Positions 25,992-28,197 of a stretch of DNA of 64,000 bases are shown here, piece by piece. Source of the DNA: Georgenia sp. SYP-B2076. GTDB lineage: Bacteria; Actinomycetota; Actinomycetes; Actinomycetales; Actinomycetaceae. The notes under the pieces are model-generated. The model worked only from the letters and a program-made list of their open reading frames with translations, ran no database searches and was not told the origin of the DNA. Numbering within the stretch: position 1 is the stretch's first letter; each line of letters begins with the position of its first letter. The position numbers and the translations under genes were made by a program. Location: assembly GCF_003991205.1 (NCBI RefSeq), contig NZ_RXOZ01000001.1, positions 62,001 to 126,000 on the forward strand, written 5' to 3'.

Positions 25992-26255
25992 TCAGCGGGT
26001 GGGGTCGGTGGCCGCCTGCGCCGGCACGTGGGTCGCGGCCCAGCTGGCGAGGAGCCTCAGCCGGTCCTCCGAGGCCGTCCCGGGCTCGGCGGTGTAGATG
26101 CTCACCCCCGCCAGGACCGCGACCTCCTCGCGCCGCAGCCCCGGGACCCGCCGGCGGCCGCCGCCGGCGGGAAGCCCGACCTGCTCGGGCGTGAGCTTGG
26201 CGCGCCGGGTGGCGAGGAAGTCACGGATGTCGGAGCGGTTGTTCACGCCGTCCAC
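25992..26255 (-). pseudogene. Internally deleted XRE/MmyB-type transcriptional regulator
   Basis: Residues 1-51 (NNRSDIRDFLATRRAKLTPE through RRVPGLRREEVAVLAGVS) are the standard N-terminus of the large actinobacterial XRE regulators whose usual length is about 270-290 residues. Directly after the recognition helix the sequence jumps to YTAEPGTASEDRLRLLASWA, which is the extreme C-terminus of the MmyB-like ligand domain in that family. About 200 residues are missing, without a frame change. The likely cause is recombination at the shared YT codons (normally GVSVDYYT and VVYTAEPG). Such a remnant keeps a partial helix-turn-helix and could bind DNA, but is most simply a decayed regulator. Confidence 0.75.
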
Positions 26256-27663: not shown

Positions 27664-27726
27664 TCAGCAGCCGCAGTCGCAGCCGCATTCCTCGAGCTCA
27701 CATGCCAGGTCCTCGCAGCAGTCCAT
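27664..27726 (-). CDS. 20-residue cysteine-rich micropeptide coupled to a MerR regulator
   Basis: ATG 27726 opens a 20-codon frame, MDCCEDLACELEECGCDCGC, with Cys at 3, 4, 9, 14, 16, 18 and 20 and six acidic or amide-free acidic residues (Asp/Glu). The ribosome site is GGAGGTGA, a full match to the 16S anti-Shine-Dalgarno; its TGA is the stop codon of the upstream MerR gene, and only CCC separates that stop from the ATG. The CC, CxC and CxCxC spacing is that of a thiolate metal-binding peptide, such as a minimal metallothionein, or a metal donor to the regulator. This is inference: no homolog was recognised, and the frame is short enough that a frameshifted tail of the MerR protein must also be considered. 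Confidence 0.65.
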   Translation of the reverse strand: MDCCEDLACELEECGCDCGC

Positions 27727-27729
27727 GGG

Positions 27730-28158
27730 TCACCTCCCCTCCGCCGGCGGGCACCATGTGCCCGGGGTGGGAGGCGGGCAGTCGGCGCCCGGCAGTGCCT
27801 CGAGCATCTCGACCATGCCCGCGCGCAGCGCCGCCAACCGCGCCATCTCGGCGTCGAGCTCGGCGAGACGCCGGGCAAGGAGCTGCTCCGCGGGCTCGCA
27901 CGGGCACTGGCCGGTGTCACGGATCGAGAGCAGGTCCTTGATGTCGCTGAGCCGCAGGCCGAGGCGCTGCGCACCCTGGACGAAGCGCAACCGGTCGACC
28001 GCGCGCTCGTCATACTCGCGGTACCCGGCGGGTGTCCGCGGCGGCGCCGGGAGCAGCCCCGCCTTCTCGTAGTACCGGATCGTGTCCCCGCTCAGCCCGA
28101 CGACGTGGGCCAGCTCGGCCACCCGCATCCCGCGCCGAGGAACCGCCGTGGTGCTCAT
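27730..28158 (-). CDS. MerR-family metal-responsive transcriptional regulator
   Basis: A 142-residue activator starting at ATG 28158. The winged helix contains RVAELAHVVGLSGDTIRYYEKAGLLP and AGYREYDERAVDRLRFVQGAQRLGLRL, followed by a long dimerisation helix. Candidate metal ligands are in TGQCPCEPAEQL (about residues 93-104) and two C-terminal cysteines (GADCPP, GTWCPP). This Cys pattern fits the Zn/Cd/Hg/Cu-sensing branch better than redox or drug sensors. The gene sits under an elongated-spacer MerR-type promoter with the operator in the spacer, so it is autoregulated. A 20-residue Cys-rich peptide follows, 3 nt after the stop. Confidence 0.9.
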   Translation of the reverse strand: MSTTAVPRRGMRVAELAHVVGLSGDTIRYYEKAGLLPAPPRTPAGYREYDERAVDRLRFVQGAQRLGLRLSDIKDLLSIRDTGQCPCEPAEQLLARRLAELDAEMARLAALRAGMVEMLEALPGADCPPPTPGTWCPPAEGR

Positions 28159-28165
28159 GGCGACG

Positions 28166-28197
28166 ACGCTAGACCTTGGAGCCGGATCGAAGGTCAA
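28166..28197 (-). promoter_or_regulatory. MerR-type promoter with 20-bp spacer and operator dyad
   Basis: TTGACC (28197-28192) and TAGCGT (28171-28166) are separated by 20 bp, longer than the normal 17. The spacer holds the dyad GACCTT...AAGGTC (28172-28195). This is the hallmark of promoters that a metal-loaded MerR protein untwists. TAGCGT is 7 nt before ATG 28158, so the transcript is probably leaderless. Confidence 0.85.

Follow-up and report, generated by a model that had tools for sequence, protein, structure and literature searches.

A MerR-family sensor gene coupled at its stop codon to a cysteine-rich micropeptide, a probable sensor–buffer operon of Actinomycetota

Introduction

Bacterial metallothioneins include MymT. 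SmtA and examples from Pseudomonas are further members named in the excerpt of PMC12301328 that our literature search returned, and the same excerpt describes CadR of Pseudomonas aeruginosa, which drives the small, previously uncharacterised, metallothionein-like protein Zrd, with induction by Cd or Zn. That a MerR sensor can drive a small metallothionein-like protein is thus already known. We analysed a 64,000-nucleotide stretch of Georgenia sp. SYP-B2076 (contig NZ_RXOZ01000001.1, positions 62,001 to 126,000; hereafter the window), in which a MerR-family metal sensor gene is followed, at its stop codon, by a 20-codon frame for a peptide with seven cysteines. As far as the excerpt describes CadR–Zrd, the likeness lies in a MerR-family metal sensor driving a small metallothionein-like product; the product here differs in having about 20 residues, in matching no family, in starting at the merR stop and in being the sole product under the operator in most genomes tested. 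The micropeptides share with bacterial metallothioneins, as presented there, a high cysteine content, CC and CxC motifs, the lack of aromatic residues and probable control by a metal sensor, but they have 18–28 amino acids and 5–9 cysteines, gave no Pfam or NCBIfam match where they were scanned and are coupled to the gene of the sensor.

We propose, with a probability of about 0.65, that this locus is a self-contained sensor–buffer operon, in which a metal-triggered MerR is made together with a metallothionein-like peptide that is predicted to act as a thiolate buffer. The proposal builds on the operon anatomy, the conservation of the frame, its coding substitution pattern, a near-exclusive operator and the MerR tree. 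No cysteine-rich peptide coupled to a MerR gene appeared among the literature matches listed, in a search outside which most subscription journals lay; judged against those matches, the size of the peptide, its stop-codon coupling to the sensor, its standing as a near-exclusive output and its phylum-wide conservation without a family model are new.

A cysteine-rich micropeptide gene at the merR stop codon

The two genes meet in a compact junction (Table 1). merR starts at ATG 28158 and its TGA (27732–27730) is embedded in the Shine–Dalgarno sequence GGAGGTGA; three bases, CCC, separate it from the peptide ATG at 27726, which lies in frame with the MerR stop (TGA CCC ATG). The 20 codons that follow encode MDCCEDLACELEECGCDCGC, with Cys at 3, 4, 9, 14, 16, 18 and 20 and seven Asp/Glu, and end with TGA 27666–27664. 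An earlier note on this DNA, made from its letters, had the cysteine positions, the Shine–Dalgarno match, the 3-nucleotide gap and the 20-codon frame right, as well as the coordinates 27664..28197, although it omitted that the unit lies on the minus strand and counted six acidic residues instead of seven. The promoter that it described, with a 20-base-pair (bp) spacer and a MerR dyad, is present too (TTGACC, TAGCGT and GACCTT...AAGGTC). A TTG at 28197, which a mechanical list of open reading frames (ORFs) offered as the merR start, belongs instead to the −35 element. When both window strands were scanned for frames that begin with ATG or GTG, have 14–45 amino acids and contain at least five and at least 20% Cys, MDCCEDLACELEECGCDCGC was the sole hit, and 200 dinucleotide-shuffled versions of the local sequence yielded no such frame.

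Table 1. Elements of the merR–micropeptide module, in window coordinates
Feature	Position	Strand	Basis or remark
−35 element TTGACC of the merR promoter	28192..28197	minus	sequence
MerR-type operator dyad GACCTT...AAGGTC, inside and beside the 20-bp spacer	28172..28195	minus	sequence and genome-wide pattern scan
−10 element TAGCGT	28166..28171	minus	7 bases before the merR ATG
MerR-family metal sensor gene, 142 amino acids, CPC (C85, C87), C-x8-C (C127, C136)	27730..28158	minus	Pfam, NCBIfam
Shine–Dalgarno sequence GGAGGTGA, overlapping the merR stop codon	27730..27737	minus	sequence
Cysteine-rich micropeptide MDCCEDLACELEECGCDCGC plus stop codon	27664..27726	minus	ORF, conservation, codon pattern

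The earlier note had suggested searching related actinobacterial MerR loci for short cysteine-rich frames at the junction. We sought relatives in public genomes, plasmids and GTDB genomes, found them at 46–73% identity, and took as clade loci the 33, the window included, with a tblastn score of at least 120 bits; all belong to Actinomycetota. Locus L106 was dropped (its printed sequence equals that of L105) and L122 gave way to L159, a longer copy of that locus, while L157, added to the tree, and L210, found later and without a peptide, stand outside the 33. A frame of 14–45 residues counted as a separate peptide if it started between 45 bases before and 25 bases after the merR stop and had at least five Cys and at least 20% Cys. 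Such a separate mini-ORF is present in 24 of the 33 loci, where 0.015 loci in total are expected from dinucleotide-shuffled versions of these stretches, and in none of 94 control MerR loci. The controls comprised 95 loci, 19 actinobacterial and 76 from other phyla, one of which (L019) was too short to count; many of the 76 are mutually close Enterobacterales and so are not independent, which makes the 18 actinobacterial loci the fairer control.

Six of the remaining nine clade loci have the peptide in a variant form. It forms an in-frame C-terminal end of MerR in L005 and L124, both of which retain an ATG behind a purine-rich stretch, and is displaced by about 80 bases downstream in L132. Longer proteins with repeated CxC and CxCxC motifs take its place in L128 (98 residues, starting 25 bases after the end of the merR stop codon) and L131 (81 residues, starting 4 bases before that end); neither passes a Pfam or NCBIfam cut-off, and the 98-residue protein alone has a sub-cut-off match to a stress domain. 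L126 has no peptide at merR and has a candidate in trans under the same operator (L156). The last three loci have nothing peptide-like after merR (L107), a thioredoxin-like protein with CPVC in the place of the peptide (L119), or, on reading by eye, only a 19-residue frame with two Cys, counted as negative (L130).

A maximum-likelihood tree of 55 MerR proteins places the 33 loci and L157 on one side of a branch and 21 controls on the other (support 93/99), a split on which 92% of 200 bootstrap trees agree. The two fusions lie in different parts of the clade, each amid relatives with separate peptides.

In L118, L121 and L127 two different cysteine-rich mini-frames, a CPCCGCPCGDCGG-type and a PCDCxxxC-type frame, stand in tandem after merR. 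The peptide gene is unlisted in two annotated plasmid records that carry it, whose gene tables are incomplete.

Coding constraint, composition and translation signals

We compared codons within two groups of peptides. Differences at codon positions 1, 2 and 3 numbered 2, 10 and 19 in the first group (three loci, 51 codon comparisons) and 23, 16 and 38 in the second (five loci, first 10 codons, 100 comparisons). The corresponding figures for the MerR core were 24, 11 and 58, and 66, 53 and 168, and those for the 60 bases past the peptide stop in the second group were 119, 144 and 130. The excess at third positions, gone after the stop, indicates that the peptide frame is maintained as protein.

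Composition was examined in 23 peptides: the 24 separate ones without L108, L117 and L121, whose starts are unsure, plus the second peptide of L127 and that of L156. They have 18–28 residues with 5–9 Cys, 34% Cys overall, followed in frequency by Pro, Asp and Gly; their net charge runs from −7 to 0 and they have no Phe, Tyr or Trp. The peptide thus has the traits of a metallothionein: small size, cysteine richness, CC and CxC motifs and no aromatic residues.

Most peptide starts sit a few bases from the merR stop. A Shine–Dalgarno match of at least five bases precedes the peptide in 22 of the 24 separate loci and one of at least seven bases in 20, most commonly as AGGAGGTGA; L027, L108, L117 and L121 are exceptions, and their start codons are perhaps misjudged. 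The −10 element of the merR promoter lies 6–7 bases from the merR start in 27 of the 33 loci. These are the loci measurable by script, the others being five without a promoter match and L027 without a start codon; by eye the gap is 8 in L005. The merR messenger is therefore probably leaderless, and since the peptide has a nearly perfect Shine–Dalgarno sequence, we infer that more peptide than sensor is made from each transcript. Between window positions 26000 and 30000 there was no Rfam match at the gathering score, and a structured RNA was set aside.

Sensor, operator and regulon

The window MerR matches PF13411, PF09278 and PF00376 above their gathering scores, and so has the MerR winged-helix DNA-binding domain. 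It reaches no NCBIfam equivalog cut-off for a named subtype (MerR-Hg, ZntR, CadR-PbrR or CueR): its best model, TIGR02051 for mercury MerR, gave 89.4 bits against a cut-off of 150.85, and the other 16 models listed were below their cut-offs too. C85 and C87 are invariant across a 30-row MerR alignment. C87 aligns with C77 of CadR, so that the cysteine at the start of the dimerisation helix is present. We take this residue to be a metal ligand. A cysteine at its position sets divalent-metal sensors apart from Cu(I) sensors.

Identity as a mercury regulator was considered and rejected. Six plasmid-borne MerRs of the mercury type (L208, L211, L212, L213, L214 and L215, beside merA or alkylmercury lyase genes) belong to the same superfamily as the clade and bear the RefSeq product name, 'heavy metal-responsive transcriptional regulator', that relatives of the window gene in Rhodococcus also have. 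However, their motif is APC[AG][HQ]V in the place of the CPC[EG] or CAC of the clade, their dyad is mostly of the ACCTTCCAGT type, and no cysteine-rich mini-ORF adjoins their merR stop. They are similar to the control group, and the tree does not include them.

The over-long promoter spacer with its dyad, 20 bp in the window, measures 19–20 bp in 28 of the 33 clade loci, those in which the script recognised a promoter (spacers of 18–21 bp were tried, 20 first). Scanned with the operator–promoter pattern at up to three mismatches, the 4.28-Mb genome of the window has a single site, at merR. The scan covered 28 genomes, 25 with a clade MerR and three congeners without one (G1129 and G1216 were left out). 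Sites were found in 21, and in 19 of these at the merR promoter only; the seven genomes without a site are the three congeners and four genomes of family f35.

The two genomes with a second site lead to further cysteine-rich products. In G1026, whose merR has no peptide, the second site lies on another contig and leads, via GGGAGGTGA, into a stand-alone cysteine-rich peptide, MPLRDDPLDCPCDDCPPGCCSLG (L156), directly under the operator in a 12-kb stretch that shows no MerR. In G1184 it has three mismatches and precedes a further MerR, whose long cysteine-rich tail is in frame. This distant protein (L157 1383–2033, minus strand) ends in ACDAGCDC...ECSCGGACGTAGCSCGCNCC and lies under a weaker version of the operator.

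Two relatives exchange the output altogether. The 20-bp-spacer promoters of L107 (Mycobacteroides abscessus pGD22-1, in the tree) and L210 (Streptomyces pFRL4, 59% identical, with CPCEP, not in the tree) face a divergent P-type ATPase at 57–58 bases, and there is no peptide. These ATPases score 465 and 453 bits against a cadmium-family cut-off of 313.5 and also pass the copper-family cut-off, more narrowly (418 and 416 against 397 bits). In these two relatives an efflux-type ATPase is what the promoter is aimed at, and the peptide thus seems to take the place of a pump as the detoxifying output.

P-type ATPases are expected to have CPC at a place where the two here (L107 863–2875 and L210 320–2326, minus) have a CSC motif (ACSCSFAMATP). 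Their short cysteine-rich N-termini (CGGCGDSC, CGCDDAC) recall the micropeptide.

A proposed sensor–buffer operon and its alternatives

On the sensor–buffer reading, MerR would occupy its own promoter, which the 20-bp spacer would keep silent as long as no thiol-loving metal or metalloid is bound to the sensor. With metal bound, MerR would untwist the promoter, and merR and the peptide would be co-transcribed, merR being read from its probably leaderless start and the peptide, in excess, from the nearly perfect Shine–Dalgarno sequence at the merR stop. The peptide, one third cysteine, acidic and without aromatic residues, may bind the metal in a small thiolate cluster, lowering the free metal and so switching the operon off, a negative feedback on its own sensor. 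The metal response, the ratio of peptide to sensor, metal binding and the buffering role are predictions of this scheme. The recurrent junction frames, an operator unique to the operon in the window genome and a trans peptide under the same operator support what the earlier note had proposed, that the target of the sensor is a minimal cysteine-rich, probably metal-binding peptide made together with it; sequestration as its probable role is favoured by the copy in trans, by the CxCxC proteins of larger size and by the exchange for an ATPase.

A wider formulation is more tentative, and we hold it at somewhat under even odds: that across Actinomycetota a family of peptides of about 18–28 residues is the dedicated, near-exclusive output of its own MerR clade, forming a homeostat whose single coupled transcript yields the sensor and a minimal encoded metallothionein, and in which the peptide, sometimes fused, takes away or presents the metal of the sensor. 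The data point to a family of tiny genes, conserved among distant actinobacteria, that no family model matched. Should the peptides bind metal, they would be genetically encoded metallothioneins of very small size, and a MerR sensor could have a buffer, not a pump, as its main output. Two genes would then suffice for testing a closed sensor–buffer loop, and a ready comparative series exists in the natural variants, in which the peptide is separate, fused, in tandem, displaced, enlarged or exchanged for an ATPase.

Several observations weigh against a sensor–buffer operon. No cysteine-rich peptide was found in three of the 33 clade loci (L107, L119 and L130). Four genomes with a clade MerR (G330, G854, G914 and G951) gave no operator site, which we attribute to drift of their sites, and the trans copy in G1026 comes from a draft assembly in about 960 contigs, contaminated at 4%. 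Codon differences within the peptides are not mainly synonymous (synonymous to non-synonymous 13:11 and 25:27 in the two groups), and the peptides are less constrained than the MerR core (52:27 and 121:96). Neither the window peptide nor the other mini-peptides scanned matched a metallothionein family; Pfam gave no match for the window peptide and four others, and NCBIfam none for the window peptide and five others. A hairpin after the peptide is significant (z below −2) in five of 24 loci and not in the window, and a terminator at the 3′ end was set aside. Resistance-type neighbours occur at eight of 32 loci and the window is not among them. Finally, the fusions in L005 and L124 would also suit a role as a tail of the sensor.

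This last point bears on the strongest alternative, that the peptide is a partner of the sensor and not a bulk buffer, handing metal to MerR or stripping it from MerR as a detachable C-terminal ligand arm. The fusions arise at two separate places in the tree, the distant MerR of G1184 bears its long cysteine-rich tail, and the close spacing of most peptide starts to the merR stop would suit such an arm. Against it, peptide and merR lie on different contigs in the G1026 draft, and the 81–98-residue CxCxC proteins or the efflux ATPase (L107, L210) found in the place of the peptide fit detoxification better. The fusions, moreover, retain an ATG after a purine-rich stretch, so a separate peptide may be made there as well. 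We consider this alternative unlikely, although more credible than those that follow.

Improbable in our view is that the peptide is the precursor of a modified metal-binding natural product (a ribosomally synthesized and post-translationally modified peptide, methanobactin-like) or serves as a store of thiols for redox or sulfane-sulfur chemistry. It is short and cysteine-rich under a metal-type sensor, and L119 has a thioredoxin-like protein in its place; but no conserved neighbouring enzyme was seen across the loci, by eye, and the operator has no second target in the window genome.

A cysteine-responsive attenuator, in which stalling on Cys codons would report cysteine shortage and control expression in cis, is more doubtful still. 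Its model is the mycobacterial cysteine-rich regulatory short ORFs, which, in the excerpt of PMC9094748, act on the downstream gene and, by the title cited there (Canestrari et al. 2020), are leaderless. Very short cysteine-rich frames are common to both, as far as that excerpt goes, but the mycobacterial ones lie 5′ of the gene that they control, whereas the frames of the MerR clade lie 3′ of the sensor, have a Shine–Dalgarno sequence in 22 of 24 loci and are conserved as peptide sequence. No conserved following gene was seen by eye in 32 gene lists, and in L156 the frame stands directly under the operator without merR.

The least credible alternative is that the frame is the true MerR C-terminus, lost through a stop or frameshift or reached by UGA readthrough: the window ATG is in frame with the MerR stop and two of the 33 loci are fused, the minority in which the peptide codons continue MerR as the earlier note's refuting case envisaged, but over the 24 separate loci the frame of the peptide relative to MerR is distributed 6/11/7, the peptide starts before the MerR stop and in another frame in L026, L112 and L115, a Shine–Dalgarno match of at least seven bases precedes it in 20 of 24, and a stand-alone copy exists. 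With the frame so variable, and the fusions scattered amid separate-ORF relatives with their ATG kept, the window is not accounted for by a frameshift in the tail of MerR; UGA readthrough and selenocysteine were rejected because of the same variable frame.

Inducing metal and neighbouring genes

We infer a thiol-loving metal or metalloid as the ligand of the sensor. Divalent ions of the Cd/Zn/Pb type, suggested by the ATPases of L107 and L210, are the favoured inducer, and As(III) or Hg(II) are possible. Genes resembling arsC occur near six of 32 loci, three of which also have an aquaporin-like channel, as against none of 20 random stretches; this count is biased, since these loci themselves supplied the query proteins, and is a lead only. 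Arsenic was for that reason not adopted as the ligand.

The module lies near arsC-like, ArsR–ArsC fusion or aquaporin-like genes in L165, L166, L176, L179, L025 and L026, which suggests that some copies belong to arsenic-resistance islands. In the window it is flanked by a zinc-binding alcohol dehydrogenase gene and a maltose-acetyltransferase-like gene, and resistance-type queries gave no match within 9 kb on either side. Neither a conserved gene following the peptide nor a conserved neighbouring enzyme was seen in the gene lists of the 32 loci, which came from a home-made caller and were read by eye, with no enzyme profiles.

Spread of the module and another sensor-linked protein

Orthologues of the window MerR are patchy. 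Across eight congeners the best match (8.3e-29, 44% identity) is L008 of the control group, and in an order-level scan two of 396 genomes, the window's included, had a match that reached 1e-33 or better. An identical MerR protein accession, together with an identical peptide, is found on two Rhodococcus plasmids, which were typed as conjugative and mobilizable. From this patchiness and identity we infer that the window-type module has spread by horizontal transfer. A viral link was considered and dropped, with one viral contig carrying a weak MerR relative.

Control-type MerR genes have a small cysteine protein of another kind. A conserved protein of 46–49 residues, CSCCGR...LHAL...AYICRRC.[IL]WVA, starts 33–57 bases from the first base of the merR stop in L006, L013, L020, L021, L022 and L214. 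It follows six of the eight control-type loci checked after it had been sighted by eye (not L008 or L009), is perhaps a mini zinc ribbon, and forms with its MerR another pair of sensor and small cysteine protein.
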